NCBI GenBank assembly: GCA_029959195.1
Contig: CP114123.1
Coordinates: 1,364,001 to 1,428,000, forward strand
DNA length: 64,000 bases
Direction of reading: 5' to 3'
Source of the DNA: Dictyophora rubrovolvata
Taxonomy: Eukaryota > Basidiomycota > Agaricomycetes > Phallales > Phallaceae
The notes beneath the pieces were generated by a model that was not told where the DNA came from, made no database searches, and saw only the letters and a list, made by a program, of their open reading frames with translations. Below, piece after piece: positions 10,740-30,900 of this stretch; the first letter of the stretch is position 1, and each line of letters begins with the position of its first letter. Position numbers and translations under genes: made by a program.

Positions 10740-10890
10740 CACTAGTGTCGTCCCCTTATTTTCCTTCGTTTATTTTCGGTTCTGGTTTATCTTATTCATT
10801 TCCTTATTTCTCGTATTTTATCCCATTTCCTACATTCCCCCTTCCTTCTGTATTCCCTTCTTTCCCTCCAACGGGCACTGAGCACCCGTT
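10740..10890 (+). repeat. 3' LTR of the Gypsy element, left part
   Basis: It starts TGTCAGGGTACACTAG right after the polypurine tract and runs to GAGCACCCGTT, where homology to the other LTR copies stops. Homology resumes at 13161 with CCGTTCCCATCAG, so the LTR is split by the intervening insertion. Confidence 0.8.
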
Positions 10891-11018
10891 GTCGCGCACC
10901 AAAATCTTCCTAATAAGGAAACGTTCTGATTTTTGGTTCAAAGCGGAGTGTCAAACTACCAAAAACTTAACCGATACACCACAGCCTCTCGAAATCAAAA
11001 CCCTTACAAAAAAAAAAA

Positions 11019-11651
11019 ATGGCCGCATTTTCATTTCACTATACATTATCAATCTCTTTGCCCATTCCAGCATCTCCCACCGAGTCATTACCCCCCTCCG
11101 ACAATGAATCTATATCACCTTTTCGTTTTTCGCCTTCCAGTCTAAGGACGTACGATTTGGATCTGCATACGACTCTTTATATCTATAGTTCCCAATATGC
11201 GAGTCTCGACATCGACGAAGAAACATACCTCCCGAAGTTCCCTCCACCTCTTATTATTCGTCAATGCAGAAGTTCGGATTTGGTTCACCCCGGTCTCATG
11301 TTTGGAGAAAAGGTTTATATCGAGGAACGATTAGACTGGTTTACAATTATCAATGTTTATTCTACACCCGAATCAGCCGTTAAAGACTCATATCGGATTT
11401 GGTTAGTGACACAAGAAGGGTTCGAATTTACATTCCTGGTTCTAGATGTGCCAAGTCGTTGGGTTGTCATGAAAAACATAAAAACGCAAAAACATAGCCC
11501 ATATAGACCAGCCAATCTTGTTCCTGTAGATCCTCAAATGTCTCGTTTTTCACCCCATTCGCCAGAACCAATATCTCTCCCCTCTTCTCCATCCAAACGA
11601 TTCTTCCGAAAGATCCGATGCGTTTGCTCAAACCTTCTTGGACAAAATTAG
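11019..11651 (+). CDS. Unrecognised 210-aa protein, first of a paralogous pair
   Basis: An uninterrupted ORF starting at an ATG after an A-rich stretch (AAAATGGCC). The N-terminal ~45 residues are Ser/Pro-rich. The middle (residues ~45-155) is a compact region with LDIDEETYLPKFPPPL, GLMFGEKVYIEERLDWFTI and DSYRIWLVTQEGFEFTFLVL. The C-terminus is basic (SPSKRFFRKIRC). The middle aligns by eye with the next ORF: the order I-Y, D-I-D, L-P, P-L, IWLV and a terminal hydrophobic strand recurs with similar spacing. No transmembrane segment or known catalytic motif is seen. It lies in the insertion at 10890-13160. I do not know its function. Confidence 0.6.
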   Translation: MAAFSFHYTLSISLPIPASPTESLPPSDNESISPFRFSPSSLRTYDLDLHTTLYIYSSQYASLDIDEETYLPKFPPPLIIRQCRSSDLVHPGLMFGEKVYIEERLDWFTIINVYSTPESAVKDSYRIWLVTQEGFEFTFLVLDVPSRWVVMKNIKTQKHSPYRPANLVPVDPQMSRFSPHSPEPISLPSSPSKRFFRKIRCVCSNLLGQN

Positions 11652-11757
11652 GACAAAAGGCTTGATTAGGATAAGCGATTAGATTTGTATTTCATCTCCT
11701 TCTTTCTTTTTGGGCATTTCATTAGTGCTTAAAAATTTTTGGTTAACTCATATCATC

Positions 11758-12336
11758 ATGTCGGACAATAACGATACTCCTACTTCCCCTATTCCCCTTT
11801 TTCAACTCCCTTTCTTCCCTTTTGAATATCGTTCTTCTCTCAGATTCGGACCCAACCCTAATTTCCTCTCACGACTTCGCATTTACAATACTCTTGTTTC
11901 TGAAATTGATGTCGACCCCTCCACAATGCTTCCGATTACTCCACAGCCACTAATGGAGATTACTATTCCTTATGACGATCTGGAGATAGGATATCCACGA
12001 GCTTTAACCCTGTACGAACGAACCAATGTCAATGTCATGGACAAATCGTATGAGTTTGTCGAGTTCCTTTCAACAAATCGTCAAGAAGAATCAATCTGGA
12101 GACTGGTCTTTCTTCATCAATTTCGAAGTTATACTCAATTCTTATTCATAGACGCACCCCTATCTGCCATCCCATCCCCTCCCGACTACTCTGTTGGAAA
12201 TCAAACCCTCCCTTCCTATTCCGATCTCCAATCCAATCTCGTTCAAGATCTGGTATTGTTAAGCGTTGCCATAGCTATTATTATTGCGCCACAGCCACGA
12301 AGAAGAAGATCTCGTCAACAAGAACCAGATCAGTAA
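11758..12336 (+). CDS. Unrecognised 192-aa protein, second of a paralogous pair
   Basis: Start chosen at the ATG at 11758 (MSDNNDTPTSPIPLF). The middle resembles the preceding ORF: RLRIYNTLVSEIDVDPSTML, PQPLMEITIP, ALTLYERTNVNVMDKSYEFV, ESIWRLVFL and TQFLFIDAPLS. Unlike its partner it ends in a hydrophobic stretch (LVLLSVAIAIIIAP) followed by basic PRRRRSRQQ, so it may be tail-anchored. It lies 106 nt after its partner in the same orientation and has no evident intron. Tandem duplication inside the insert is the likely origin; function unknown. Confidence 0.6.
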   Translation: MSDNNDTPTSPIPLFQLPFFPFEYRSSLRFGPNPNFLSRLRIYNTLVSEIDVDPSTMLPITPQPLMEITIPYDDLEIGYPRALTLYERTNVNVMDKSYEFVEFLSTNRQEESIWRLVFLHQFRSYTQFLFIDAPLSAIPSPPDYSVGNQTLPSYSDLQSNLVQDLVLLSVAIAIIIAPQPRRRRSRQQEPDQ

Positions 12337-13160
12337 GAAGTTTGGGATGGTAAGATTATAGTTTTGGGTAAGAGGTAGCGCGAGAAGTGCCAGATGGTGA
12401 TTTTGGTAAAGCTATGCTGGGAATCCGGTTTCATTGTTTTCTTTTGATCTCTTTTTGTTTCTCTTTTGTTTCTCTTTTGTTTCAACATATTTCTCCTATT
12501 CCCCCTAACCACATATGCGATTCCCCTTTTTCTGTAATTGTATCCTCCATCGTTTTCTCCGTTTTCTTTTGTTTCTTTGTTCTCTTTTTGTTTCCTTTTG
12601 TTATCATGGCGAATGATGAGTGATCATTCTGCTTTCCTTTATATTTCCAAATGGTATATATACTGCATGTAAATAATTGTAACAGCAGCAATCTACCGGA
12701 ACGGTTGTCTCAAGTTTAGTTCAGTTTAAGTCAAGTTCAAGTCAAGTTTCGTCTCTAGTCTATTTCTACGCTCACATCTATTTCTTTGGATTACTCTGAG
12801 TGAGGCCTCGGAGTATAAACTCAACGATTCGTATTGTCGTTGAAGCCTTACTAACTTTAAAACAGATTATCATCGCTGTATTATCGACAGTGTATTGACT
12901 CACCATTTTATCGCAACTCACATTTATCGTCCCCCTCACACACACACGATCTTAGGATCATCATTTTTTTGTTGTTGTTGGTTTTATATCGACGCACACA
13001 CACTCGCTAAATATCATATTATTCCCCCACCCTCCTCCTTACGAAATCAGCACCAGGACCCACTCCACAGAGACTAGATGGCCTCAAACCAAATATCTTC
13101 GTAGTTTTTCCAATTGTATATATAGCTACGACATTTAGCTATTATCTTCGGATCGTTACA
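12337..13160. other. Right part of the insertion, no ORF
   Basis: A T-rich tract (repeated TTTGTTTCTCTTTTG near 12450), a TATA-like site near 12653, short AGTTCAAGTCAAGTT-type direct repeats near 12720-12755, and a CA-rich stretch near 12930. It could be promoter and leader of the inserted element. No coding sequence is supported. Confidence 0.5.
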
Positions 13161-13410
13161 CCGTTCCCATCAGAGCCATGGCCTAGGCCCTGGCTAAAGT
13201 CTGGGACTGGTGCGTATCCACGCCCAGTCCATGAACCGAAGGCTGCGTATGGCCTTCGCTGTTTTTTCATAGTATATAGTTAGTAGCCCTAGAGGAGGGA
13301 TCCCTAAGTTTGTTCTCTTAGGATCCCCTCCCTCTAGGTGAGTTAGTATTTCTACCAAATATATTTCTCTTAGGATCCCCTCCCTCTAGTCTGAGTGAGT
13401 AGCCCTGACA
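13161..13410 (+). repeat. 3' LTR of the Gypsy element, right part
   Basis: It continues the LTR from CCGTTCCCATCAG through the repeated GGATCCCCTCCCTCTAG blocks to CCCTGACA at 13410, and is very close to the right half of the 5' LTR. Confidence 0.8.
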
Positions 13411-13500
13411 GATCCCCTCTCTCTAGGTGAGTTAGTATTATTCCTAGAATATATTTTGCTTAGGATCCCCTCCCTCTAGTCTGAGTGAGTAGCTCTGACA
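13411..13500 (+). mobile_element. Right tail of an older Gypsy-family LTR
   Basis: A second, variant copy of the LTR tail (GGTGAGTTAGTATTATTCC ... GCTCTGACA) abuts the Gypsy 3' end. Its variant bases match the reversed LTR at 13840-14181 better than the Gypsy LTR, so it belongs to another subfamily. Confidence 0.65.
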
Positions 13501-13839
13501 CTAATATGGGAGCAATGGTAGAGGACTATGAACATTTACTGCTGCAACACGGTATAAACTTTGATGCTGTTAACTCACAAGTCATGTAAGAGTATTTCAT
13601 GTTTTTTTTTGACTGTTACAAAATGAATTCTATGTTACAGATGTTTTCTGCATACCCTTCATCTGGCAGTCAATGCTTTAATGGATGTACTAACTGCTGC
13701 TGAGGCTTGACAAAATACAACAGCGGACTTTGTCTCCCCAGCTGAGGAGCCATGCTATCTTGACTTGCAGGAACTTGAGGATGCTCTGGAAAGAGATTCA
13801 ATGGCCATGGCACGTGATATTATCAACACTATCTGGAAG
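13501..13839 (+). pseudogene. hAT-type transposase fragment
   Basis: A frame reads VEDYEHLLLQHGINFDAVNS, then a short intron (GTAAGA to TTACAG, about 13588-13640), then CFLHTLHLAVNALMDVLTAA. The latter resembles the C-x-x-H-x-x-N/L-x-V-x-x-x block of hAT transposases and their domesticated relatives. A TGA follows near 13708, after which the frame continues PAEEPCYLDLQELEDALERD. Both edges are LTR sequence. It is a small fragment, so the family call is an inference. Confidence 0.45.
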
Positions 13840-14181
13840 TGTCAGGGCTACTCACTCAGACTAGAGAGAGGGGATCCTAAGTAAAATATATTCTGGGAAT
13901 AATACTAACTCACCTAGAGGGAGGGGATCCTAAGAGAACAAACTTAGGGATCCTTCCTCCAGGGCTACTAACTATATACTACGAAAAATGGCAAGGTCAT
14001 ACACGGCCTTCGGTTCATGGACTGGGCGCTCAGCACCCGTTGAAGGGAAAAATGGGAATACGGAAGGAGAGGGAAATGTAAGAGATGGGATAAAATGCGA
14101 GAAATATGGAAATGAATAAAATAGACCAGAACCGAAGATAAACAGAGGAAAAGAAGGGGATGATGCTAGCGTACCCTGACA
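13840..14181 (-). mobile_element. Reversed Gypsy-family solo LTR
   Basis: TGTCAGGG at 13840 to CCCTGACA at 14181, opposite orientation to the Gypsy element and shorter (342 bp) than the 406-bp copies. No matching target duplication (GGAAG against AGGAG). Confidence 0.75.
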
Positions 14182-14700
14182 AGGAGTGTGAAGAGAAGGC
14201 AGAGAACGAGAAGAGCAAATTTGGAATGAGGACATATCTTTCGTATTGAGGTTTTTGGGATAACAAAAAAAATGTTTAGACATGAGTTTCGGATAGTTGT
14301 AAGGGTGAATTTAAGCTCCGAGGGACATATCATGGGATTAGGGAATCTTTGGAATGTTTTACCTTAATTCTTGCCAAATATAGATTTTGGTACGCGACAG
14401 CAGCCACATAGTATTCAAAACAAAGAAAAATGGCAATGGTGAAGTTGTTATGTAACCACTTCACCTCTCTCACCAAAAACACGAAGATAATGTCTCTGAC
14501 AACAAAACCGAAAAAACACAACAGAAAATCAGCAAAACCAAATTAACTCAGACTTCTATGCTTTTTGTCTTTCACTTCTACTTCTTTTCTAATCCTTTTT
14601 GCCGATAACATCATACACGACACAATTGGGAAAAACACTTTAACCAAAGGAAAATAGTAGGAAAAAGGTTACGTTTATTCAGGCTCATCTATTTTTCCTT
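14182..14700. other. No gene seen
   Basis: AT-rich sequence between LTR copies. Short ORFs on the minus strand here have no recognisable features. Confidence 0.5.
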
Positions 14701-14968
14701 TGTTATTATTTACATCATTATTGTATCATGTATTGCATCATTACGATGTAACAAGTAGAATTAGTTTAGCCCTAAACATGTATAAAAAGGGCTCTAAAAA
14801 GCATGTATCTAGCATCCTTTTATTGCAACAGACACACAGTGTTAGCTAATACAGCTTATTAAACAATAAAAGGGTCACATTAGTTTCTCGTGCTCTCAAA
14901 CCTCTTATTTAATACTATCTGAGACTTGTCCACAAGTCTCACTCTAATACTATACTTACTCACTAACA
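14701..14968 (+). mobile_element. Possible LTR of a separate family
   Basis: A 268-bp stretch bounded by TGTTA and TAACA, with a TATA box (GTATAAAAAGGGC near 14780) and a downstream AATAAA-like AACAATAAAAGG near 14865. These are typical parts of an LTR. I found no second copy in the window, so this is tentative. Confidence 0.35.
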
Positions 14969-15065
14969 GTTATATAGATTGGGAACTCTCTAAAGAAGAT
15001 TGGATATTCCTAGCCTATCTTTTGTTAGCAACGAATCTAGACAAATGCTTAACAAGTAATTATGT

Positions 15066-16504
15066 GTGATTCTATTTGATTGCCACACATCAAGGAGTTA
15101 CATAACAGAAGTGACGAAGTGCAAAGTAAGAATTGTTGCCAAGGGCTTCTCGCAGGTACCTGGTCTTGATTTCTCAGAAACATTCTCCTCCATCGCAAAA
15201 TTCACAACCCTTCGTGTTTTGTTGTCAATTGTTACACATGAAGACTTGGAGCTGCATCAAGTGGATGTTATTAGCACCTCTTCAAGGTGAACTGGACGAA
15301 GAAATTTATATGAATGTACCTGATGGAGTGAAGGAAGAGGGAAGAGAAGGCTGGTCATAACAACTTAAAAAGACGTTGTATGGATTGAAACAAGCTGGAC
15401 GCTAATGGAAGCAGAAGCTTGATAGAATACTCTCAGAGCTTAAATTTGAAAAAAGTGCTGCAGATGACTGCCTGTACATTTTGAAGGAAAATGGGGAAGA
15501 TAGCATTGGTTTAATTGTTAGGGCAACTCAGGGCACACACCTAGAGGAGGGAAAACCTAAGAGAAAAAGCTTAGGGATCCTCCTCTAGAGAGAACAACTA
15601 TATATCTACAAGTACAGGTGCTTGGTCAATCCCCATGGGATCCGCAGTGATAACAAATGAAAACAAGTGAGAACGAGAATTCGGTCGAAGACTGAATTTG
15701 AGAGAACAAGTTGAAAATAAGAAATAGACAGAAATATGAGAAATTGAGGAAGGATGGAATAAACACAGAGAGCATGAATACAGGAGAACGGGAAAACGGG
15801 AAAATGGAAAGTGTCGCTAGCATACCGTAACAGTCAGCTCCTTGTTGTTTGCAACACAGACCTGACTGGACATCCAGTTTGCAGTCAGTTTGGTCTCTCA
15901 GTTCAGCGGTAACCCTGGAAAAATACATTTAGAAGCCGCAAAAAGGATTTTGAGGTATCTGAAAGGGACCGCTGAATTTAGACTAACCTTTGGATCCAAC
16001 ACTGAGTCCACCATTGATGTTGTAGGGTGGAGCAACTCAGATTGGGCTCAAGATCTGGATGATCGCTGCTCAATAGCAGGCTTCATTTTCAACATAGCAG
16101 GCAGTGCCATCTCCTGGTCATCGAAAAAGCAACCCACCATCACTTTATCAACCATTGAAGCCAAATTCATGGCCACATCGACTGCCGCTAAGGAGGCCAT
16201 CTGGTTGTGTACCCTACTCATGGATCTTGGATATCCACAGTTAAAAGCATCAATTCTACATATCAACAACCAGAGCTGCATCGCCCTTGCACGAAATCCA
16301 ATAGTGCACAGCAGAGCAAAGCACATCGACATCCAGTATCACTTCATCAGAGAGTGAGTGGAGATGGCAGAGATTGCAACTAAATATGCATTGACAAAAT
16401 ACATGCTGGCAGATATATTCACAAAGCAACTGCTGTGTGAAATGTTTGAAAGGTTCCAGAGTGAATTGGGAGTGGGAGTGACGAGTTAGTGCACTGAGTG
16501 GGAG
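15066..16504 (+). pseudogene. Copia retrotransposon remnant (RT and RNase H parts), interrupted by an LTR
   Basis: Recognisable reverse-transcriptase segments VAKGFSQVPGLDFSETFSS, ELHQVDV, DEEIYMNVPDG and LKKTLYGLKQAGR. After the inserted LTR at 15516-15832 come the Copia RNase H segments LEAAKRILRYLKGT, ISWSSKKQPTITLST and SIEA-like TIEAKFMA, ending near the 3' LTR at 16505. The remnant is a fossil with at least three breaks; gag and integrase parts are not seen. Confidence 0.85.
15516..15832 (-). mobile_element. Diverged Gypsy-family LTR inserted in the Copia remnant
   Basis: A 317-bp segment with ends TGTTAGGG and CCGTAACA. It contains CACACCTAGAGGAGGG, GCTTAGGGATCCTCCTCTAG and CGCTAGCATACC, all recognisable variants of the Gypsy LTR in reverse orientation. 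It is the most diverged copy in the window, so probably the oldest subfamily. Confidence 0.65.
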
Positions 16505-16650
16505 TGTTGAAGATAGACAGCACCACTAAGTGTGAGTGCTTGTATAGATAGTTTTAGCTTAGTCACACACTTGCCTAAAGGTTCAAGGCTTCGCCTTGAA
16601 CTCTTTAGCTATATTCTGCTGCTTATAATATAAGCTATATTACCCTAGCT
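16505..16650 (+). mobile_element. Copia 3' LTR, start
   Basis: TGTTGAAGATAGACAGCACC follows a purine-rich GAGTGGGAG and matches the LTR at 5186. A hairpin GGTTCAAGGC/GCCTTGAAC lies near 16580. The right boundary is not clear. Confidence 0.65.
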
Positions 16651-17452
16651 GTTGTTAGAGTCTGATGCGAGCATAGAGTGCGTGATGTTAAAGGGCGTGA
16701 AGATGAAGAGTCACTAGGTTTGGGTGGCATTGGCAAATATACTTTCAAAAGGCAAACAGTAGGAAATGACAAGCAAAAACACACACTTGTCACTTTATAT
16801 GTCATGTGTTTTGGCCTTCGTGATGGATGCCAGGACTATAATAAGTCCTGTGTGGACACAGACTGTAATTCCAAATCAACGAACAGATTTGTACAGTCAT
16901 GCTCAATATTAAGTTTTGACGTTTATACCAAAAGCTTGTATCATCGGTGCACGCCGGCTGACTATCTATCTCAATCTGAAAACCAACGTATTAGTATCTG
17001 GAGATACCAATAATTCTTGTAGTAAGCCATGTCGTTGACATTGTCCAGTAAATTGTTATACTTTGATGTCTGCATCGCTTGTCGTCACCTATGGGACATA
17101 CAATTGTCAACTCCATCCCTGGCCCATCGGGACAAACTTGAGGAAATCAGTGTCAACACTTCAGATTATTCTGTTCAACTGACCTCTCAACCAGATTATT
17201 ATCATTACACAAGGTTAATCATGTGCTCCATTAGAATGCAATAAAAACTGACAGTACGACACCTAACAGCCTAGGCCGCTTAACAAGGAATGTTACCCCT
17301 CCTTGTCTTCGTCGCTGCATTATACCTGTTTTCGGGCCTTTCCTTGGCTACCTCAAATCTCGGCTTTCCTTTCAGAACTTGTGTCATCCAGCATTAAGAT
17401 GGCACAGATGATGTGCCTGTACTAAAAGCTCTAATTCCAGAATGTTCAACCA
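16651..17452. other. No gene supported
   Basis: Two short plus-strand ORFs (16678-17013 and 17029-17244) have no recognisable domain and no convincing splice context. I leave them uncalled. Confidence 0.45.
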
Positions 17453-17505
17453 GTATTTCCCTCTAGGGAACGCAACACGGTGTTGCGTTCCCTAGAGGGA
17501 AATAC
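17453..17505. repeat. 53-bp near-perfect palindrome at a rearrangement edge
   Basis: Arms 17453-17478 and 17480-17505 are 26-nt exact reverse complements with one spacer base. The right arm, read on the minus strand, is the intron 2 acceptor (TTTCCCTCTAG) and first exon 3 bases of gene relic copy G. The left arm is that same piece inverted, and beyond it homology to the gene family stops. Confidence 0.9.
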
Positions 17506-17808
17506 ATACAGTCAGAACTGGTATAATCTATGTTTTTTGCGCATGAAATAACTTACATATAATCTCCGTGGGCTTCTGCAAATCTCACATCAACAACTTC
17601 CCAGTGGGCCCGCTCTGAGAGGTAACTATATTCACAACTGACGAGTGCAGCGTTCAAGCCCATTGCCATCTTAGCAATAAGCATATGCCTGAAGATGCAT
17701 AAACTAACAGGAAACCAGGAGGAAAAGAATCTTACTCAGAAGGTGTTTGAGCATCCGCGGTGAGTGCAGACTTGAATTTCTCAGTAGCTCCGCTTCTAGT
17801 GAACATCC
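17479..17808 (-). pseudogene. Small-gene family relic, copy G (end of exon 1, exon 2, start of exon 3)
   Basis: On the minus strand the tail of exon 1 reads EKFKSALTADAQTPSE and ends at a GTAAGA donor at 17736. Exon 2 (17688 down to 17557) reads HMLIAKMAMGLNAALVSCEY, then SYLSERAHWEVVDVRFAEA, and is open. It is closest to exon 2 of the copy at 25560. A GTAAGT donor and the intron are followed by a CTCTAG acceptor and ~12 bases of exon 3, where the palindrome begins. Exon 1 is cut near 17808 by unrelated sequence. Both ends are lost. Confidence 0.8.
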
Positions 17809-18660
17809 CTATAGCCAGCACCAGGCACTACCAGGCACCAGCTACCTAGCTACTAATAGCCATTGGCTACATCATGTACTACCTAAATTTAATAGTCACC
17901 GGTAGTCACCAATGTCTAATAATAAATTTTATTGGAACAGCTTGTCGAAACCAGTGGCTATCATTAGATTTTAATGGAGTCTTATCCTGCAATTCCACAG
18001 AAAGTCTGCATATAAGTAACTATCCCTATCTTGTTTTCCAACCCTAATTTTGATTATGTTGTAGATGCTTTCTGAACCCTCTACACTAAAATTTCTGTGG
18101 TTGGTGAGGGCGTTGTACATACTTATTGCTGTTTGCAAAATAGTTTTCCAGCTTTAGTTTCACACTAAAACTTCAAAGTTGAGCAAAAATTCTCAAACCA
18201 CTTGTAAAAATTAAAGAAATTTATACAATGAATTTTAGAACAAATATCATTTTATATAATAATTTTTTAGATGAGAAATTATCTATGTGACTATACTTCA
18301 GATACTGAACTGTATGTACTTTTCGAAGGTTCCTCATTCATAAAAATTATTACAGGTATCAAACATGTACTAAAATTCATTGTATAATTTTCTTTGATTT
18401 TAACAAGAAATTTTGGAATTTTCACTTGATTTTGGGATTTTGGTGTGAAACTGAAGCTGGAAAACTATTTTGCAAACAGCAATAATACACCTTTGCTTAT
18501 GACAGGTAGTTTTAATGTGTTTTTGGTACATAAATTATTTTTTCATCCATTGCCAATAACACTTGACATAGTTCTGGAGTCATGTCCATGTCTGCCATTG
18601 GCTCCAGAGTGAAGCATTCAAGTCAGCAAGATCTCAAAATTAGATCCAGTACTACTAGTA
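17809..18660. repeat. AT-rich insertion containing a ~360-bp fold-back
   Basis: 18125-18483 folds on itself: the left arm ATTGCTGTTTGCAAAATAG returns as CTATTTTGCAAACAGCAAT at the right. Similarity continues inward for ~120-170 bases with mismatches. The outer parts contain short repeats (AGTCACCGGTAGTCACC near 17893, GCCATTGGCT at both sides). A MITE-like DNA element is likely. The left edge cuts exon 1 of copy G. No coding capacity. Confidence 0.6.
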
Positions 18661-19046
18661 GCACCCAGTGGATGTCACTGGATTCGACTCGCCGTGCAAG
18701 ACCGTACCAATAGTTCAAGGCCGAAGCGTAATGTGTGTCACTAGCGCCCATTATTGGATGCCAGTGGACAGTGGGACGTTCACTAGAAGCCATCGTACTC
18801 GAATTTCCGGTAGTATTCTTCCATGTTCGTACCCACGGGCGGTGTTCACGTGTGACGTAGAACCGTAGTCACATTGACATGTACATAGAGTGGGTCACGG
18901 ACCGTTATCGGGGATTCTCTCTTGCCTAGCATGTACATGCGGTTCGAGGCGCGTTGACGCGACTCGACGCGTCCTTCAGTGCAAGCCAAGGCAGGTTCGT
19001 TTAGTACGTAAAAAGGGGAGCTCCAAACACATTTACATTTACACCA
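18661..19046. other. 5' flank of copy A
   Basis: It holds a version of the family's promoter box (TTTAGTACGTAAAAAGG near 18998). Nothing else is recognised. Confidence 0.5.
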
Positions 19047-19253
19047 TTGAACGTGTTGATGGGTAATACTTATCATGCCACACCATCTGCGGATGAAGAG
19101 GCTCTCGTCGATTCTATCGTCAGGCGAAAAGTCCGTTTCTCAGTTTTGTCTGAGCAGCACGCCGCCGTGGCTCGCTCCAGAGGACCTGAAGTTTTCTCGC
19201 AAGCTTGCGCTGATGCCTCTAGAGCCCTCGCTCCAAAACAGGTCGAGAAATAA
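19047..19253 (+). pseudogene. Small-gene family relic, copy A (exon 1 only)
   Basis: The frame reads ADEEALVDSIVRRKVRF, then EQHAAVARSRGPEVFSQACA, then DASRALAPK, and stops. It matches exon 1 of the other copies (EEEAILVDSIVKRKLR ... EEHADVVRSKG). The ATG at 19075 in the family's start position is one base out of frame with this. Exons 2 and 3 are not found before hut1. The promoter box upstream is recognisable. Confidence 0.75.
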
Positions 19254-19570
19254 TATACCCGCTGAAAAAGAGAGCCCGGAAAAAAGTCTCCTAGCACTAG
19301 AAATTATTAATTATTGATCATTTTCTATACACAAAATAAAAATGATCATATGCAAAAGCCCCGAGTCAGCGATAACAAGAGGCAGTGAGCGTCTAAACAT
19401 CGCGAATGATCCTGCGCCACGTGACATACGTGACAGGTGTACAGATTCCAGATTCCAGAATGACACGTACATGGCCGTAAAACGTCAGAACGTGCGCCAA
19501 TATTTCCTTTAATTATATAACGCTTGCATCTAGAGGACTGGTTCAGTCTTTTCTTCAGCTGTATTGACCC

Positions 19571-21018
19571 ATGGGATTTCTCAGGTAAGGCATTGTTATT
19601 TCGAGGAGTCGATGAATTCAGATTTGTTAGGTTGGCGGTGTGTGTAGGAGGTGTTTATTCGATGTTCCTGGTAAGCAATGCCATATTAATTCCCAAATTA
19701 TCAGCTCTAATCCGGATATTAGATATGGGCAATAGCTCAAGAGAGGCGTACGCTATCTTTCTTAGATCATTCCCCTCTCAGCTAAAGTTCTCTCCAGTAT
19801 CAGTCCCTTTCGTCTCGAAATATGATTCCTCCCAATCAGCGAAATTCACCTCCTCTCTCGTTATTGGATTATGTCAAAGTGTACTTAGTACACTGTCCTC
19901 ATTCATTTACATCATGCTCAGGCGAAAGCCAGGAAGCACGCTTAGACAAACCTTTGGATTAGACGAAAACCGAAGCGTACATCACACCAACGGAAATGCT
20001 GCAAATGGCCATACACATCATAATGGAAACCCACTTTCGTCAAAAGCCTCTTCGTCGCGAGGGTTCGTCCTTGCTTGGTCGTATTTTCGAACTTCACTTC
20101 TCATCACCGCTGCTGCTCCGTTTGGATTTGCTGCCCTTGCGCATATTTCGTATCCAACCATGGTCCTTGGGAAATCGTGCAAACTCGTCCCAGTTCTCAT
20201 CATGAACGTTCTCCTGTATCGTCGCCGTTTTGCCCCTCATAAATATCTTGTTGTGGCCATGGTCACAGCCGGTATAACGATGTTCATGTTCTTCGGGTCA
20301 GAATCTGCAGCGGCAGCGTCCAAACATGCTTCAAAAGCGTCACAATCCGGAGGCGGTAGCAACTTTATTGGACTGTTATATCTTCTTATCAATCTAGCCC
20401 TGGATGGTACCATCAATTCAACTCAGGATGAAATATTCTCTCGCCATAAAGTTACCGGCCAGCAGATGATGTTCTTCATCAATCTTTTCGGAACATTCAT
20501 TTCGTTATTTTTGGCCTCTCTTCCTTTGCCTTATATCCCTGTCTTGCATCCTTCGCATATTCAAGAGCCGGAACTGGCGAATGCTCTCAAATTTATAGAA
20601 TCTCATCCCGGTGTCATCAAACCATTAGCGCAATTTGCTTTCACCGGCGCTCTGGGACAATTATTCATTTTCGAGACCTTACAGCACTTTGGATCGTTAA
20701 CCTTAGTGTAAGTGATCCCATAGTCTGTCGTGGTTGGTTACTGCTAATCATACTGTTTAGCATGATAACACTAACGCGCAAAATGTTCACCATGATTTTA
20801 TCGGTTGTTGTGTATAATCACTCTTTAGCTGCTGGTCAATGGTTAGGAGCAACAACAGTTTTCGCTGGAATCACTGTCGAGGCGTGGGTTAAACGAAGAG
20901 GTATTTTATATGCGAATATTTGTTTTTTGTGCCCCGAAGGCTAATGACAACCTCGACAGAAATACATGCCAAGAGAGTTTTGCAAGAGAAGGAGAAGGCC
21001 CAAATTAAACAGCTCTAA
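19571..21018 (+). CDS. HUT1: HUT1/SLC35B1-type UDP-galactose transporter
   Basis: A multi-span nucleotide-sugar transporter of the ER membrane; HUT1 is linked to UDP-galactose transport and ER folding. Six exons join in frame to 395 aa: 19571-19584, 19631-19670, 19723-19747, 19798-20707, 20761-20900 and 20960-21018. The joined start [20 protein letters not shown] followed by AIAQERLSVPF is the family N-terminus. Family motifs [20 protein letters not shown] and [13 protein letters not shown] follow, and the last membrane segment reads [20 protein letters not shown]. The first exon is 14 nt and the third 25 nt, so automatic callers may miss them. The gene is intact and sits between family relics A and F. 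Confidence 0.92.
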
Positions 21019-21093
21019 AATTACATAGTATAAAACAAATATTTCAAACGCCCAAATACCACAATGGCGCATGATGTTATTAGATGTACTAAA

Positions 21094-22038
21094 TTAATAT
21101 AACATTTCCGTATCTGTCTCCGTATCACCCACTGTCCGTTGTTGCCCCAAACCTTGCAATGCACGTCTCCGCTCCTCAGCCCTGCGTACAAATCAGGTCA
21201 GGCGTATGCTCCATAGCTTTCGACTCATGGCACTGAGGGAAAATCTTACCTTGAAATCTCATCTTCGTGGTCATCGTCTATTTCCCGTTTTCTTCGAGCG
21301 GCCGTATTTAAATTCACGTTAGGCTGAGAAGCAATTGCATGACTGGCGCGATAAATGGATTCATATTCCTATTTTTTTTTAGGAAAGAAACGATGACGAT
21401 GACGGTTACGAAAGTATAGCATTCACGTACTTTGATTTGTGTTAAAAAACCTGAGTTCGGCGAGATGCAATACCGCCGATTTTGCACAAGATGTAGAGCA
21501 TCCTCGTGATTTAAGTTATAATGCTCCATCACGAACATTATTACGAACGACGGCGACAGTGAAATACCCCCTTTTAGAATTCAGCGACTTGGAATGAACA
21601 GTAGCCTTTACCGAGAGAAAGAAAGATCACTTACCATTACAGTGGACTAGTACACGACCGCCGTTTCCGATCGCATTATATATGAACTGCTTCGCACTGT
21701 ATTATGTATTAGCAAAATTGCCCACTCACACGACAAGGTATAAACTCACTTTGGAAAAATTTGAATCAGATTCTGTTCCTCCGTATCTTGTACATCTAAC
21801 ACCATATATTGAAACTGATCGGGGAAACGGGGCTTTACAGAAAAGGCTTCTTTCGAATCTCGGATACAAACACTGATCGGGGCAGATGAGACGTGGTATG
21901 GTGACAACTTGAAGGAGAAGCGAGGAGTTTCTCATACATATGTGTAATTCCGAGTTGTTTTAGGGTGTCTAGTGACTTTGAGACAGCGAAAGGGCCTAGA
22001 AATAAGCTGGGTATGATTTCTTGACATTCGCGCCTCAT
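21094..22038 (-). CDS. STYX-like pseudophosphatase (dual-specificity phosphatase fold)
   Basis: Six exons join in frame to 210 aa: 21938-22038, 21750-21872, 21635-21696, 21431-21570, 21250-21368 and 21094-21181. It starts MRRECQEIIPSLFLGPFAVS. STYX-like order follows: GITHIVCIRDSKEAF, FQYMVLDVQDTEEQNLIQIF, the P-loop region GGRVLVHCNGGISLSPSFVI, RRYCISPNSGFLTQIKEYES. In active enzymes the loop is H-C-x5-R. Here Cys94 is kept but the Arg position is Leu (residue 100). Mammalian STYX instead replaces the Cys with Gly. I infer a catalytically dead binder of phosphoproteins. The C-terminal ~45 residues are charged (RRKREIDDDHEDE). Tail-to-tail with HUT1, 75 nt apart. Confidence 0.85.
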
Positions 22039-22699
22039 TTCATATCTAATGTGTATTCAGCGGGAAAGTCACGGTTCATGTTCGTGTTCATGCATTGAAA
22101 TAATCTACCCGCGCGCACCTCCATTCGAGTTCACCCGGGGCCTTAATAAGGTCCCTTATTTCTTGCTCTGATGTCGGAATAATTGCCTCCATCACCATAG
22201 TATCTTTATGAAAGATCGAAGAATGGGTAGCACTGCAGAGTTGAAAAGAGGCGATCTATGAATAGACGCCCGCAATTGCTAGCTGACCAGGCTTAACCTC
22301 AGGCTCGTGAAAAAGACCGAATCACGCCAATTGGACGATTAATCATCATACTGGACAATGCTCCTCGGACGCTTCAGCGACAACGCTGTAAAGGTACGTA
22401 TTCATCTTTCGCAAAGTTCCTCGCTGTCTCTTTTCGAGACCTACGGCGGGCGGCTTTTTCGACACGCCAGATGCCCACAAAAGATTTTTAACGAGGTCTT
22501 AAACTGTGTTTTTGGAAAGTTGAAATACAAGTCGGCTCGCAAACAAGCTCGCGGACGCAGCAATGGGATTTATTGATAGAAGAGGATGGCTTATGTCGCG
22601 TGGTTCACCAACGACGAGATATTTTGAGGCTAGTTCATGCTTCGAAACCCGGTTTAGGAATGAATAACGTATCCGTTCAGAGGAACCAGCATGTGGAAG
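22039..22699. other. No intact gene
   Basis: Upstream of the STYX-like gene. An ORF at 22358-22576 has no recognisable domain. It may be degraded sequence in front of relic F, but I cannot show that. Confidence 0.4.
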
Positions 22700-22830
22700 A
22701 AGAGCTTGTTCCCACTGATACTCCTCTGAGTAAGACCCCCCCTCTTTGACTTATTTTATCCCATTGTTCACGCATCCCCAGCCACATGTATATTGCGTTA
22801 GTGGCAAGAAGTTCATTGGAGCCTGTTGTA
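22700..22830 (+). pseudogene. Highly degraded small-gene family relic, copy F (intron 1 region)
   Basis: GAGTAAGACC, a T-rich stretch, CCATTGTTCACGC, then an acceptor-like CCCCAGCCACATGTATATTG and GCGTTAGTGGCA closely follow intron 1 and the start of exon 2 in the copies at 23815 and 27079. The frame upstream (RNQHVEEEL, TDTPL) is only loosely like the end of exon 1. No other part can be traced. Confidence 0.5.
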
Positions 22831-23737
22831 AACGCGTCCAAAACAAGTCAGGTACGAAGTTACTGCCATTGATCAAAGCTACAGTAGAATCATTTGTAAG
22901 TGGTCCTGTACACAAAGAGCTCACACGTCATAATTTTGAGTGCACACCTTGTCACCCAGTGGGCAAGCAGCCCAAAGTAATGATTTAATCGATTCTACCC
23001 TCAGCCGACGAACTTAAACCTTCAATGAGGTGCGAAGCAGACTTGCCATATATATCTCTCCCAGGTCCTTGTAATTCACGCATTTAGATAATCGGACAAT
23101 GATGTATATTGAGACAAATAGATACATGAGAACAAATCCTTTCATATATGCAAGACTTGCAGCCTACTGTTTAATTTATATGAATGCCGTTCGTGGCTCA
23201 GGCTGGGTTTGTTTGCGAACTTTCGCCCTGGCCACGCTGTGCATCTCTTTGTTGCTTCGTGATCTCCAGCGAATCACCTTCCCCGGAGTCTGCCATCTCT
23301 TCTTTAGATTCCGGGCGGCGGGAAAATCTGCCTACCAACTAACTGTTAGTGGAGACTGGAGAAAGTGCCACACGGATCTATAAAATTTGAGATATTGAGA
23401 ACTGGTGCAAGATAAATCATCATCTGAGACGCCAAATATTATGCGATTGAGCGTTTCGTGACCGAAGTCATGCCATGCTTGCTGGCATTGCATGCTTCCG
23501 AGGGGGGTGGCCTCTTGAACGTCTGGATGCCATCGGCCGTAATTGGGACAATACAGACTTGCAATGGATGGACCATTCAGTGGACGATCGGTTGAGTGAA
23601 TGTGCGCACACATTGATCACTTCAATGAAGATGCAACGATACGCGAGAAGGACTGGGCAACAGGCAACAACAGGCGTCATCATGTTTTCTTCTTTCTTTT
23701 ACGTCCACTTCATAACTAAGACATTACCCATCACATT
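22831..23737. other. 5' flank of copy B
   Basis: No gene recognised. From about 23560 the sequence resembles the 5' flank of copy D (near 26800), both containing ACGATACGCGAGAAGGAC, so the duplicated unit begins here. Confidence 0.5.
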
Positions 23738-23814
23738 TAGTACACAAAGGGAGAGCTGGACCATATTTCGCCCAAACCTACACTTCCACAATCTCACAAA
23801 CTTATTGAATAGTC
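23738..23814 (+). promoter_or_regulatory. Family promoter box, copy B
   Basis: CATTTAGTACACAAAGGGAG followed by AGCTGGA and ATTTCGCCCAAACC, ~75 nt before the ATG. It recurs before copies C and D and, weaker, A. Confidence 0.5.
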
Positions 23815-24657
23815 ATGCCACGAAAGAAGTTATCCAAGGAAGAAGAAGCTATACTAGTTGATTCCATTGTCAAGCGGAAACTCCGTCTTATAGATTTGGG
23901 TGAAGAACACGCCGATGTGGTTCGTTCCAAAGGACGCGAATTTTTGGAGAGAGCCTACCATGAAGCCTCTAAAACTATCGGACCGAAGACTGGCCGAGAA
24001 ATAATGTATCCACCTCGGGGTACTAACATGGAAGAGTACTACCAGAAATTCGAGCCTGCACTCACCGCAAATGCTCGGATGCCTTACGAGTAAGACCTTT
24101 CCTTTCTTGATTTGTTTATTCCGTTGTTCATTATCTTTCAGGCATATGTATATCACATTAGTGGCAGCGGGTTTGATTGCAGTCATCAACGCTTGTGAAT
24201 ATGCCTACCTCCCTGAATGATTGCAGTGGGAAATTGATATCAGAATGGGAAAAGCTACGATAATAACTCCGTATGTGATGTCGTAAACAAAATGTATTCA
24301 CTGTTTGTGACTGTACAAATCTCACTCTAGTAATCCACTTAACAACAACGCAATTATCGGGCCACAAGCCCAAATCAATGTCGAAGGACTCCAAGTTCTC
24401 CCACCCATTGACCCATACGCGCAGCTCGTACAACTAAACCACGAGCAAGTCGACGAATATTTGGAGAATTTTTCCAAGGTTCATCATAAGATCCTTTATG
24501 ACGGGAGTGGCATATGCTACAGGATTATTGGCGCAAACTATTCCCAGACGACTCCAACAATCGACTCGTATGAGGTTCAGAACGTAACTGTGCCGTCACA
24601 TATTCGTTCAATGATGTCAAACAGATGTTACTCCGAAGCTCAATAGTCTTGGGGTAG
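23815..24657 (+). pseudogene. Small-gene family, copy B, degraded
   Basis: Exon 1 23815-24089 is open (MPRKKLSKEEEAILVDSIVK start, PPRGTNMEEYYQKFEPALTA). Exon 2 24142-24270 contains a TGA where copies C and D have CGA (YLPE-stop-LQWE). Exon 3 from 24331 reads QVDEYLENFSKVHHKILYDG, then loses 7 nt relative to copy C after SYEVQ, which shifts the frame. The original stop position is at 24655. Introns keep GT and AG. It is a recent pseudogene by the look of it; a shortened product from exon 1 is possible. Confidence 0.8.
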
Positions 24658-24929
24658 CATTTTGCTGTCTCCTACGTAAAAGTCAAGACTGAACGTCTGG
24701 CTGAAGCGTAATACTTTGCTGGTGCGCATACTAAACTGGTACTTAGAATTGGTAATATTGTAGTGATAAGCGGGATGTACGTCGAGATCCATTTAGCATA
24801 AACCAACCCCGAGTTTGCGTGAATCACAACCACCCCATACCTAATTATTTAAATGCATCATTCAGGAGAAATGAAAGAGTCTTGCTAGTACTATTTCTCT
24901 TTGGAACGACAAAAATGTAGCTAAGTCTA

Positions 24930-25470
24930 CTAGGGTAGGTTCGTATGTATCTCTGACTTGTATACAAGATAGTTAGCTGGATTACGGCTCTCAAGGTTGT
25001 TTCTAGTATCGATGGGAGGCAGGACGTTATGTGGCGGCATGTGGGGATGACCACCACCAACGCCTCGTATGGCCAAAGGGTTGTGTGGATTGAATGGGAC
25101 TAGTGATCGAGGGATTGGCCCGTACAGTCGAGTAGAAAAAGGACCACCAAGACTAACTGCCTCAGTCACATTCCAGCCCTCATCAGCCGCAAAGAACATT
25201 GCCAAACCCCCGACTGTCGTGGACATTTTGCCATAGTGCATCATGGTGAGCATGACGTCCCATGTCTCATCGCCTGAAACCAATCTTGGAAAAAATGTGT
25301 AAAGACTATATTGTCGTCTCTCATAACCTCGCCTCAAGAGGGAAAGAATAAGTCGACGATACGTCCTCGCTGTTTTCTATGTTAGCATTCACAAGTAACC
25401 TTGTATCAATAATGGATCCAACCTCTGGGAGAGTCCCAGCCAATTGGGAGAGGGTCCGAGTCCATTGCAG
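24930..25470 (-). CDS. Unrecognised partial gene, 3' exons only
   Basis: Minus-strand exons join in frame across two short introns: a piece near 25425-25470 (RTLSQLAGTLPE), then 25330-25379 (KTARTYRRLILSLLRRG), then from about 25280 DETWDVMLTMMHYGKMSTTV, FFAADEGWNVTEAVSLGG, and a Gly/Pro/His-rich tail HPHMPPHNVLPP ending SEIHTNLP at 24930. Splice sites are consensus. Upstream coding stops where the 5' flank of copy C begins, so the gene appears cut there. I do not recognise it. It could instead be a short gene with a start I cannot see. Confidence 0.45.
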
Positions 25471-25477
25471 TCAGGGC

Positions 25478-25559
25478 CATTTAGTACACAAAGCGAGAGC
25501 TGGAGTATATTTCGTCCAAACGTACACCCACACAGTCGAACACATTACTTGCCAAGATC
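25478..25559 (+). promoter_or_regulatory. Family promoter box, copy C
   Basis: CAGGGCCATTTAGTACACAA, then AGCGAGAGCTGGAGTATATT, ending ~55 nt before the ATG at 25560. It is the same box as in copies B and D. Confidence 0.5.
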
Positions 25560-26407
25560 ATGCCACGAAAGAAGTTGTCTGCGGAGGAAGAGATCCTAGT
25601 CGAGGCCATCGTCAAGCGGAAATTACGTTTTATGAGTATATCTGAAGAACATGCGGAGGTGGCTCGGAACAGCTGCAGACCTGATCTTTTCGAACAAGCC
25701 TACAATGAAGCCACTAGAGCACTCGCGCCGAAGACTGGTGATGAAACAATGTATCCACCCAGGGGTACGGACATGGAAGCGTACTATCAGAAATTCGAGT
25801 CTGCGCTGACCGCGAAGGCTCGAACGCCTTTTGAGTAAGGTTCTTTGCGTCCCAGGGGGTTTCTATCCCATTAATTTACGCGTTTTCAGGCATATTCTCA
25901 TCGCCAAGATAGCCTCGGGCTTAAACGCTATCCTTGTCAGTTGTGAATACGCTTACCTCTCAGAGCGAGCCCAATGGGAAGTTGACATAAGATTTACCAG
26001 AGCCAGAGCAGCTACGTGTGTCATTCCATTCGCAAAAAAACATATATAACCAGTTCTGATTGTATATACTTTCCTTTAGCCAAGGCAGAGTAGACACCGA
26101 GCGACCCAGCCAATTTACCACTCAAAGATTACCGTTTCTCCCGCCAATTGGTCAGGGCGCGCAGCTTATCAAACTTCAGCCCATACAAGTGAACGAATTT
26201 CTGAGAAACTTCTCCGAACTTCATCACAAGGTTCTTTGGGACGCGGATAGCCGCGAATGTTACAAGATTATTGGCGCGAACTATTCTCCGACGACTCCTG
26301 CAATCGAATCGTATGAGGTTCAGCTGCAGGAATGTCCCTCTGCAGTTAAGTATTTGTTCGATGATGTCAAACAAATGCTACTCCGAAGCTCTCTTGTTGT
26401 CGGTTAG
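25560..26407 (+). CDS. Small-gene family, copy C: the one intact member (242 aa)
   Basis: Three exons, 25560-25834, 25890-26015 and 26080-26407, join in frame to 242 aa. Exon 1: MPRKKLSAEEEILVEAIVKR, a charged helix-rich domain with EEHAEVAR, ending PPRGTDMEAYYQKFESALTA. Exon 2: a hydrophobic or amphipathic stretch (ILIAKIASGLNAILVSCEYA) then LSERAQWEVDIRF. Exon 3: a linker LPFLPPIGQGAQL, then NEFLRNFSELHHKVLWDADS, ANYSPTTPAIESYEV and a C-terminal LLRSSLVVG. No signal peptide or catalytic motif is evident. Introns of 55 and 64 nt have GTAAGG/TTTCAG and GTGTGT/CTTTAG. Conservation of protein sequence across copies despite decayed members suggests past selection. Function unknown. Confidence 0.75.
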
Positions 26408-26999
26408 CTTGCTTGTTTAAATGCTTTTCACTGTGCAGTTATCTCTGTCACGTAACGAAATGTACTCCCTCTTTGGATACATGAATAAACTACAAATTGT
26501 GTCGCGTCCCTCGAAACCTTTTTATGTATATCATTTTTCGCGTTCAACCGTTTGATTTCAGCACGCGATTTTAAGGTTCAATGTAGACGCGGCCGTATGG
26601 CCGGTTTGCTCACATCTGCAATGACTCACATTTGCCAGTGCATGAGTTACATCCCAGCCTGCATGCATAAAACAATGCTAAGTCCCTACTAATCGTCCTA
26701 GGAATTTTGTCATGAGTATAGTGAGGATAGTTATAAACAGATTCAAATTCAGACATCGGACAATTCCGCGCCGAATACACACCAGCCTGGCCTGCAATAG
26801 AGGGACGGATTGGACAATCGGTTGTGTGCACGCACTTCGATGGCTTGATGGTATGTCAGCTACTACCTTGGTCAACTTACTCTACAGCAACAACGATACG
26901 CGAGAAGGACCGGTATTAACAACAGGTGTCATTACGTTTTCTTTTTTCTTCTCCGTCCATTTCATAACTAAGACTTTGACCATCACGCGGTCAGGGTCA
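26408..26999. other. 3' flank of copy C and 5' flank of copy D
   Basis: The first ~160 bases match the 3' flank of copy D; the last ~200 match the 5' flank of copy B. No other gene is seen. Confidence 0.55.
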
Positions 27000-27078
27000 T
27001 TTAGTGCATAAAGGGAGAGCTGGAGCATATTTCGCCCAAACCTACACTTCCATAATCTCACAAACTTATTGAATAGTC
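27000..27078 (+). promoter_or_regulatory. Family promoter box, copy D
   Basis: CATTTAGTGCATAAAGGGAG then AGCTGGAGCATATTTCGCCC, nearly the same as copy B to the ATG. Confidence 0.5.
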
Positions 27079-27926
27079 ATGCCACGAAAGAAGTTATCCA
27101 AGGAAGAAGAAGCTATAGTTGATTCCATTGTCAAACGGAAGCTCCGTTTTGTAGCTTTGGGTGAAGAACATGCCGATGTGGTTCGTTCTCAAGGACGCGA
27201 AGTTTTTGAGTGAGCCTACCAAGAAGCCTCTAGAGCTATTGTGCCGGGTAGTGGTCGAGAAATAGTGATTCCGCCCAGGGGAACAAACATGGAAGAGTAC
27301 TACCAGCAATACGAGCCTGCACTCACCGCAAGTGCTCGAACACCTTCCGAGTAAGACCTTTCCTTTCTTGATTGATTTGTTCCGTTGTTCATTGTCTTTC
27401 AGGCACATGTATATTACATTAGTGACAGCGGGTTTGATTGTAGTCATCAACGCTTCAGAATATGCTTATCTCCCTGAACGATTGCAGTGGGAAACTGACA
27501 TCAGAATGGGACGAACTACGAGAGCGCCTCCGTATGTGATGTCGTAAACAAAATGTATTCACTGTTTAACTGTACAATTTTCGCTCTAGCAATCCACCCA
27601 ATAGCAACGCACTTACCGGGTCACAAGCCCAAATCAACATTCAACGACTCCAAGTTCTCCCGCCAATTGGCCCAAACGCGCAGCTTATACCACTTAACCA
27701 TGGGCAAGTCGACGAATATCTGGAGAATTTTTCCAAGCTTCATCATAAGACCCTTTGGGATGCGTTCAGCCACGAATGCTACAAGATTATTGGCGCGAAC
27801 TATTCTCAAACGGCTCCAATAGTTGAGTCATTTGAGGTCCAGTTGCAGGGATGTCCCTCTGCAGTTAGATATCCGTTCAATGATGTCAAACAAATGCTAT
27901 TCCGAAGCTCTCTTGGTATTGATTAA
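27079..27926 (+). pseudogene. Small-gene family, copy D, broken by one stop
   Basis: Same three-exon layout as copy C. Exon 1 reads MPRKKLSKEEEAIVDSIVKR and contains a TGA near 27210 (VFE-stop-AYQEAS) where copy B has AGA. Exon 2 (YLPERLQWETDIRMGRTTRA) and exon 3 (QVDEYLENFSKLHHKTLWDA ... MLFRSSLGID, stop TAA 27924-27926) are open, and the splice sites are kept. One codon of the E-E-E-A-I-L block is missing relative to copy B. The 5' half is closest to copy B, but the 3' flank is closest to copy C. Confidence 0.8.
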
Positions 27927-30900
27927 CTTTACCATCTGTAATTTCTCGAATAGTTTTGTCAAGTTTGCTAAATGCTCTCCATTGTGCAGTTATCTCTGTC
28001 ACATAACGAAATGTACTCCCTCGTTGAATACATAAATAAACTATAAACTGTGTCGTGTCCTCCGAAACCTTTCGATGTGGATCAGTTTTCGCGTTCAACC
28101 GTTCGATTTAAGTCAAAAAACACAGATCTTAAATTGATAGCCAATTCAAATGCTCGTCTGAATCCGAAGGCATATCAATGACTAGTGATAGCATATTAGT
28201 GAGAGAGATTCTTTCTTGGAGCACCGTAAAGGAGTTCTCGTCTCCACCTGTTCCATTGAGGCTGACGAGGTCGTACGCAAACTTGATTAAGCGTTAGATC
28301 CTATCTGTAGATTTCGTCCATAAGGAATAACGAGACTGTGAAGCTTCATCTACACCCTCAGATCGACAGTAGGCGCTCTTTACTTTAGATCGGAGGATTC
28401 TAACAAGTGGAAAAAATAGTATGACAAAGATACCATTCATACAGCGATACTTAGGTGGTCTAAAAAATTTCCATCAATTCACGGTTGCGGCGAAATTTCT
28501 GCCCGATGAATTAACGCTATGGATAACGCTATGGATAACAGTGTCTGTATAACTCGAGTGATGAGATCAGTAGTACGAAAATGTCCTGAAAGAAGAGAAA
28601 AAATAACTTCAATGGACTTCAAAGTTCTCGCGGGGAAAATCATTACCGATCTGGTTTTTTTTAATATGAAGAACACATTAGATATGTCAGAACTGTCATC
28701 CGGGTTTGAGCGTTATAATAAACGATTCTTTTTCAATTCTCAACTGCGACCACATGAAAATTTCTCGTGGATCGGCCCGAGACGGAGAAATGGCGAGGGA
28801 ATATATGAATACATATTTGCCTAGCCTTCGAAGCTGTGCTTTCTCTGTTGAAAGACATAACAAATTCCTTGGATATGAACTGCTCCAGATTTGTGGATGA
28901 TGTATCAAACGCTTGAACTTTATTGTCTTGTATTTGAACAGCCTTTGAAAAAAATTGAAAATTAATTAGGGGCTGAATGTCGCGGTTATAATGACAGTTT
29001 TAGACTTCGAATTTACTAATTAGATCGGAGCTGACAGATACGCCAGGTAATTAATACCTAGATAGATAACTATTTCAATTTTTGTTATTTCAGTAAAGCT
29101 CGAAAACGTTATTAATAACCAATTAGTCCCGATTACTGCCTAACACAATCATCAAAAAGGTTTCTGACCCGGGGCCGCAGTTATACGATTCTGAAGAACT
29201 TTCTAACACCGCGTCATTAAGAACCTAAGTTACCACGCAAAGGCCAATGCATGTACAGTTTTGCCTTAAACCGAATCCGAATGCTCAGGGAATCTGTATC
29301 TGGGCGGATTGGACGAACGAATATGTCGGTCGTCGGATGCTAGCAAGCCAATTTCAAATTCTGAGATCAAAATTCAATAGGGACTTACTGATGCCACAAA
29401 ACAGATCTTCTCTATGCCCTAACGCCCATCAACCCAGGCTCGTAGTAGTTCACCGAGGCCCAAACATCACGTTGAAAGCATAACGAGAGTCAGTGTCGGC
29501 CAGGATCGGTACATCGAGACATTGATGAACCATCCACATGATATTTCAGTTTCTTTTTGTCTCAGTTCAGAGTTACTTCAGTTGAGCAAATTGCCTCTGC
29601 GGCACGCTGGAACATAGTGTCACATCCTCATCGACCCATCGCGTCTAATTTGTTAATCTTTGTTTGTAGATCATCGAAACTTGTCCGCGCATGCAAGACA
29701 CCAAGCGCTTCGTACGGCGAGTCATAGCTGCAAGTATGATCCTGACAGAAATCAGGATGAAGCTGAAGAAGCTTTAAGCTGCATGCGAGAGTCTGCACAA
29801 ACGACGATGCTGAAGCGCCGAAATTTCGGATTGCCGCCCTCTATTACATAACTCTGCTGACTCACTTGCACGCAAGGCCGCTCTTGTCGAGTTATCAGTT
29901 TAAAACGTGCTCGGCGAACTCATTTCGCTGTTTAGATGAGCTTTATTTTGCGCTAGGCCATCCAAACTTAAATCCTTTACATCCTCCGTCACCGCGTCAT
30001 CCCGGATCCGTGCACGACGGTGCTTTTGTTTGTAGTTTTGGATTCAGCGATGTCTGCATTTTGAGGCATAAACTTGGTAAAGGGGTAGTCAAGCGTTGTA
30101 AGTTTTCTCATAGACGTTCCTTTTGTTTGCTTCAATATTACTCCTCAGGAAGTCTGTTTGTGTCAAACATGATGCTGACGTCCGGCTTTTCTCGCCGTCC
30201 TGCAAGCCCTGCCCTGCACCGTGTTCAATCCAAACACGAAACGAGCATTTTGCCAGAATTAGGAGTCTGAAATAACATTCGCGTTACTGAGAACATTGCA
30301 GATTGGGAGTGCTGGCGAGTATTCGCCTATGCCAGGAGAGTCATCATACATGTCTTCACAAGACATTTTCGAGACACTTAGAAAGTTTTCTCCATCATCG
30401 TTTGAAGACCCGGATCGCACTCTGCTCTCGTTCAAGCGAGTTGTTGCAGACACCTCGTCTTTGTCACTGCTATATAGCAGAATTTCATCGGGACTCGGGG
30501 GGGCATGATGCAAAGTCCGCATTGGCAGCTTAGAATTTTGGCGCGCGAGCTAATTATCAAGCTGGCATTGCGTTGTTTTGCTGGATGCGGTTTTTGCTGA
30601 GGTCCTTCATCAGCACCACCCTCACCTGTCTACCCCAGATCAACATGTCTTGCACCGTGTTCGACCTAGACAGCTCCGCACTCAAGGCGGAGGTCTCATT
30701 CTTCACCCCGATCGTGGTAGGAAACTCGAAGAAGCGGGCTTTTTCATTGTCTTCACCCCGTCGGCGAACTGAGTGATGGATTCAGTCTCAGGACAGAAAT
30801 AATGGTCGCACGGCAAATGCAGTCCGAGCGCAGTAGTATTCGTCAACAATACACATACATATAGAGACATGGATTTGTGTTGACATTTAAGACTGCTATG

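Follow-up and report, generated by a model that had tools for sequence, protein, structure and literature searches.

The subject of this analysis is a small family of three-exon genes in Dictyophora rubrovolvata (Basidiomycota, Agaricomycetes, Phallales), found in a stretch of 64,000 nucleotides of contig CP114123.1 (assembly GCA_029959195.1, positions 1,364,001 to 1,428,000 of the forward strand; "the window" in the following). Copy search, counts and comparisons all refer to this one 64-kb window. One member of the family is intact and its lineage has evolved under purifying selection. This gene, called I here, lies at 25560-26407 and was borne out as an earlier note, made from the sequence alone, had read it, with three exons on the plus strand whose spliced translation gives 242 amino acids and with two GT-AG introns. 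Its parts are:

25469-25559, plus strand: 5' flank of I, common to other copies, candidate promoter or 5' untranslated region
25560-25834, plus strand: exon 1 of I, start codon at 25560, from the spliced translation
25835-25889, plus strand: intron 1 of I, GTAAGG...TTCAG
25890-26015, plus strand: exon 2 of I, hydrophobic or amphipathic, maximal 19-residue Kyte-Doolittle mean 1.44
26016-26079, plus strand: intron 2 of I, GTGTGT...TTTAG
26080-26407, plus strand: exon 3 of I, TAG stop at 26405-26407
26408-26561, plus strand: 3' flank of I, matching copy D (87% over 144 nt) and not copy C

Using the 242-residue protein as tblastn query against the window we obtained per-exon bit scores of up to 136 for two full-length pseudogenes, C and D, and the best score among 20 shuffled queries was 24.6 bits. 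Together with a third, eroded relic they are located as follows:

23815-24657, plus strand: pseudogene C, full-length (exons 23815-24089, 24142-24270 and 24331-24657)
27079-27926, plus strand: pseudogene D, full-length (exons 27079-27350, 27403-27531 and 27590-27926)
about 22570-22838, plus strand: eroded scrap related to C and D, running from the middle of exon 1 across intron 1 into the first part of exon 2

In C, exon 2 is interrupted by a TGA and exon 3 by a frameshift towards its end; D has one in-frame TGA, which lies in exon 1. The exon-2 stop of C (24218-24220) reads TGA where D reads CGA, as a CpG transition would give. Both pseudogenes have kept their splice sites and share with I the exon order, the splice positions and a homologous protein, so that for I, C and D the common structure proposed for seven copies holds, but the seven come down to about five. 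C, I and D stand head-to-tail with start spacings of 1745 and 1519 bp, and their homology takes in the flanks. The opposite strand between C and I holds an open frame of 148 amino acids (24930-25376, minus strand) without a Pfam match at E <= 0.01. The scrap, which had been noticed as a copy at about 22730, is real and homologous but longer than had been proposed: over about 250 bp it aligns with C and D at scores of 77 and 78, with I at only 27, and 200 shuffles reach at most 46.

The remaining pieces had been taken for separate copies at 17557 (minus strand), 19047 (plus strand) and 349 (minus strand). The first two turned out to be one gene, B, inverted and split by an insertion of 1,018 bp:

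18989-19260, plus strand: B, 5' flank with the initial two thirds of exon 1, in inverse orientation to B's other parts, aligning to 25469-25756 of I
18799-18842, minus strand: B, middle of exon 1 (alignment 18797-18842 to 25755-25800 of I), unlisted by the earlier reader
17781-18798, no strand assigned: insertion of 1,018 bp within B's exon 1, like a non-autonomous DNA transposon, splitting the two minus-strand pieces of B
17478-17780, minus strand: B, from the last part of exon 1 through exon 2 and both introns up to and including the acceptor, interrupted where exon 3 begins
349-659, minus strand: piece A, an exon 3 whose frame is open as far as its own stop, aligning to 26103-26407 of I

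The pieces at 18989-19260 and 18797-18842 abut on I with an overlap of 2 bp and in opposite orientation, and therefore belong to a single gene cut by an inversion. The long minus-strand alignment of B (17478-17796) covers 25776-26099 of I; the target-site repeat makes up its first bases, together with a fortuitous continuation into the insert. The insert has 18-nt inverted repeats (17792-17809 and 18773-18790, 94% complementary) beginning 11 and 8 bases inside its ends, and is flanked by imperfect direct repeats of 9 bp (17772-17780 and 18799-18807, 8/9 identical) whose sequence corresponds to an exon-1 site present once in I. In its inverted repeats and its target duplication the insert resembles a non-autonomous DNA transposon; no element family was identified for it, and its CpG observed/expected ratio is 0.43 against 0.93 for the window. 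B has thus been broken by both the inversion and the insertion. Within the insert, 18123-18485 forms a 120-nt inverted repeat (84%) around a loop of 123 nt, which may represent a further element or a foldback structure.

For piece A, the open exon 3 was confirmed and is 79% identical to that of I (241/305), but it is probably not a copy of its own. Its alignment begins 4 bp beyond the end of B on I (26099, where the last bases depend on a 6-base gap and the BLAST alignment stops at 26087), on the same strand and in the right order, and we therefore regard A as probably the displaced tail of B, now 16.8 kb away. Exactly at the break of B, at the exon-3 acceptor, lies a perfect inverted repeat of 26 bp with a 1-bp spacer (17453-17505), one arm of which aligns with B's own sequence, as if the break had undergone fold-back repair.

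The family thus counts about five copies, five if A belongs to B and six if not, and one of them is intact. Seven independent copies are ruled out, as pieces of one rearranged gene had been counted separately. Exon profiles run against all six-frame segments of the window of at least 15 amino acids gave no further credible copy, the next rows beyond the described pieces having E values of 0.99 (exon 1), 0.052 (exon 2) and 4 (exon 3). The copies are shown to separate into two lineages, I with B and C with D and the scrap. Among quartet sites in exon 2, 28 group B with I and C with D against 1 and 2 for the alternatives, and in exon 3, with A as fourth sequence, 20 sites group A with I and C with D against 7 and 3. 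C and D agree at 48/52 positions of intron 1 (92%), and D resembles C through intron 2, the identity to I around intron 1 being just 23/50 and 24/50. The 3' flank of D is unlike that of C, and three blocks of it between 27950 and 28100 are 84-88% identical to I (28/32, 44/50 and 42/50). From these block identities D is likely a mosaic, and a replacement of C's own 3' flank would give the same pattern. Unequal crossing-over or gene conversion within such a tandem array would account for both the head-to-tail copies and the mosaic look of D.

Selection was followed by the ratio of nonsynonymous to synonymous substitution rates (dN/dS, omega), of which the earlier note had said that a value below 1 in the intact copies of a lineage-restricted family would support a real gene family. 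The codon fits omit exon 3 of C behind the frameshift as well as two short exon-1 pieces of B, and the per-branch 'free' estimates from two-sequence fits, not being identifiable, were disregarded. With one omega per pair we obtained 0.453 for I and D (238 codons, twice the log-likelihood difference (2dlnL) to omega = 1 being 18.4), 0.343 for I and C (200 codons, 2dlnL 27.8), 0.587 for C and D (210 codons, 2dlnL 5.0), 0.319 for A and I in exon 3 (105 codons, 2dlnL 14.9) and 0.393 for B and I (92 codons, 2dlnL 8.7); A and D give 0.383, B and D 0.396. A three-copy model of I, C and D has an omega of 0.488, with about 0.44 on the intact branch. Fixing omega at 1 on the branch of I lowers the log-likelihood from -1960.87 to -1968.03, a drop of at least 7.1, compared with drops of 1.1 (to -1962.00) on the branch of C and 0.1 (to -1961.01) on that of D. 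Since omega = 1 is rejected on its branch, the lineage of I is constrained and under purifying selection, and the branches of C and D are compatible with neutrality.

That the product has no recognised domain, as had been stated from the translation, agrees with the Pfam search, in which neither the intact product (E <= 10) nor the whole read-through of C matched any family. The read-through of D gave Croc_4 (E 0.0087) and CD34_antigen (E 0.064), neither of which reaches the cut-off or occurs in I or C, and a Csm1_B row (E 0.22) was rejected as weak. With a 6-row alignment, NCBIfam returned acyl-CoA dehydrogenase (2/6 members, best E 0.034, intact product 0.2) and PHROGs returned phrog_34847 (1/6 members, E 0.098), both of which we take as chance. 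A search of PDB sequences with the intact product found nothing, and further ones gave one row at E 0.96 and five rows with a best E of 0.36 (Lupus La), none of them credible. Among the viral contigs of IMG/VR the 242-residue protein had no pattern match, and the exon-3 profile had 28, none confirmed; among GTDB contigs this profile had 39, again none confirmed. Structure prediction, which had been suggested as a check, did yield models of single exons but they are too weak to place a fold: AlphaFold gave helices for exon 1 alone (mean predicted local distance difference test (pLDDT) 54.3) and, for exon 3 alone, a helix, four strands and a helix (mean pLDDT 52.6). The exon-3 model had 317 Foldseek matches at E <= 10 and none at E <= 0.001, and for this reason the RWD, double-stranded RNA-binding and PWWP rows among the best 50 of the 317 were not used as evidence. 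In its order of helix, strands and helix the model is like a double-stranded RNA-binding domain (weak Foldseek rows 2dix, 2l33 and 2nug), but the likeness concerns the fold only and is accompanied by E values of at least 0.7, a template modelling (TM) score of about 0.2, the pLDDT of 52.6 and no Pfam match. Exon 2 is hydrophobic to amphipathic, and its best 19-residue Kyte-Doolittle mean of 1.16-1.60 over four copies is borderline for a membrane helix.

Taking these results together we favour, with a probability of roughly 0.8, that this is a small fungal protein-coding family shaped by local duplication and copy loss in ordinary birth-and-death evolution. Copies with a common exon-intron structure, an intact copy under purifying selection and pseudogenes are all present, and the local birth and death of copies that the earlier note had seen is recovered in the tandem sisters, the pseudogenes and the rearranged copy. 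Copies would have been gained by local duplication, partly as head-to-tail tandems through unequal crossing-over, and lost through point mutation and rearrangement. The product may be intracellular, with an N-terminal half that is charged and helical, a helix encoded by exon 2, hydrophobic or amphipathic, that may be in contact with a membrane or partner, and, predicted from exon 3, a compact alpha/beta domain at the C-terminus; as a tentative guess it would serve in binding or as an adaptor, without enzymatic activity, and its extra copies would be dispensable. Head-to-tail local copies, pseudogenes, possible signs of recombination between copies, a moderate dN/dS and the lack of a known domain are also typical of lineage-specific (orphan) tandem families, from which this family differs in being known from one 64-kb window. 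Several points weigh against the reading as a constrained family or parts of it. Exon 3 alone (I, C and D) has an omega of 0.674 at which 1 is not rejected (2dlnL 2.8), and together with the value for C and D this makes the constraint moderate; omegas from pairs with a pseudogene also cover the period before it broke; exon 3 of A stays free of stops in 8-13% of neutral simulations (60-80 substitutions), so that its open frame alone is weak evidence; and the low mean pLDDT of both exon models makes the domain picture tentative.

If every copy were a neutral relic, the open frame at 25560 would be a matter of luck. All other copies in the window are indeed broken or partial, and neutrality is compatible with the branches of C and D, but it is rejected on the intact branch, all splice sites of I are intact, and its 240 tested codons stayed free of stops in just 0.07-0.8% of neutral simulations with an assumed 150-250 substitutions, making this explanation hardly tenable. 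The mobile unit that the earlier note had considered, taken here as a non-autonomous element or a cargo moving the gene around, is not supported and appears very improbable. Both orientations do occur over 28 kb with retrotransposon pieces nearby, and the homology of I, D and B shares about one 5' start, near 25467-25469. However, the opposite orientations within B are accounted for by the inversion, the limits of homology differ between C-D and I-D, and the head-to-tail copies are not bracketed by inverted repeats: the units of I, C and D have 4, 1 and 0 short inverted-repeat pairs, none linking both ends of a unit (target duplications at these units were inspected by eye only). The copies carry introns and are thus not retrocopies, and no transposase match was found for the intact product in Pfam and PDB sequences or for the 6-row alignment in PHROGs.

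A gene of recognition or conflict under diversifying selection, as in allorecognition, drive or host-parasite interaction, would fit the fast turnover and the divergence between C and D, whose exons differ more than their introns (101/633 vs 8/110, Fisher p 0.019, with 8/110 or 9/110 intron differences depending on the alignment) and whose differences are spread nearly evenly over codon positions (31, 29 and 41, each of 211). The excess over introns peaks at third positions (p 0.003, against p 0.099 at second positions) and for that reason is not read as selection on amino acids, nor accepted as proof of positive selection. As the omegas of 0.587 for C and D and 0.44 on the intact branch also speak against it, and C and D are pseudogenes, we hold such a role to be unlikely. 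Still more improbable is the elaborated version in which tandem copies that exchange segments, with exons diverging faster than introns, would feed variants to one active locus resembling an allorecognition or conflict system, as an undescribed fungal family. Finally, exon 3 could be a diverged Mug135_C-type domain (PF08593), which would make the gene a remote relative within a known family. Exon 3 of C matches this profile at E 0.042, and at E 0.013 for a segment of 34 amino acids picked afterwards, with 27-28 residues aligned below threshold to profile positions 30-57 and none of six shuffled segments matching it. On the other side, this is just one of four exon-3 members, its 14.6 and 16.1 bits stay under the 23.8 of the curated cut-off, no match came from the intact copy or from a consensus made by hand, the full read-through of C hits no family, and one shuffled segment matched another family at 0.085. 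Membership is therefore rather unlikely, and the likeness is a lead only. PMC3229568 and PMC2659443 give a DUF1773 gene and mug135, each with one row in an expression table.

Among ten open reading frames (ORFs) of the window scanned against Pfam are genes for a fungal protein kinase (PF17667), a UAA-type transporter (PF08449), the Isy1 splicing factor (PF06246) and a TM7S3/TM198-like protein, a content that fits a fungal chromosome. The Pkinase_fungal (FunK1) kinase family is typical of mushroom-forming fungi. A literature search by general words or by the names Mug135 and FunK1, in which the sequence was not used as query, found nothing on the gene family described here. Among five ORFs scanned for mobile elements there are retrotransposon pieces (gag, reverse-transcriptase RNase H and chromodomain), and the stretch at 5679-16576 carries such gag, RNase H and chromodomain sequences with repeated pieces in both orientations. 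Two parts of this stretch have CpG observed/expected ratios of 0.69 and 0.41, against 0.93 for the window, a depletion that suggests decay driven by methylation. Two adjoining ORFs in it (10971-11651 and 11683-12336, 226 and 217 amino acids) have no Pfam match at E <= 0.01 and show weak mutual similarity (47 residues, E 0.001), possibly as another duplicated pair without a known domain. An N-acetyltransferase exon suspected at 1805-1957 had no Pfam match, the window gave no hit in a transfer RNA scan, and 17000-28500 gave none in Rfam at the gathering threshold.

In summary, a small gene without a recognised domain is under selection in D. rubrovolvata while its sister copies decay. The raw reading of the copy number had been inflated by scoring fragments of one rearranged gene as separate copies, and has been corrected here. 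The matter would gain weight if many fast-evolving copies of the family existed fungal-wide.

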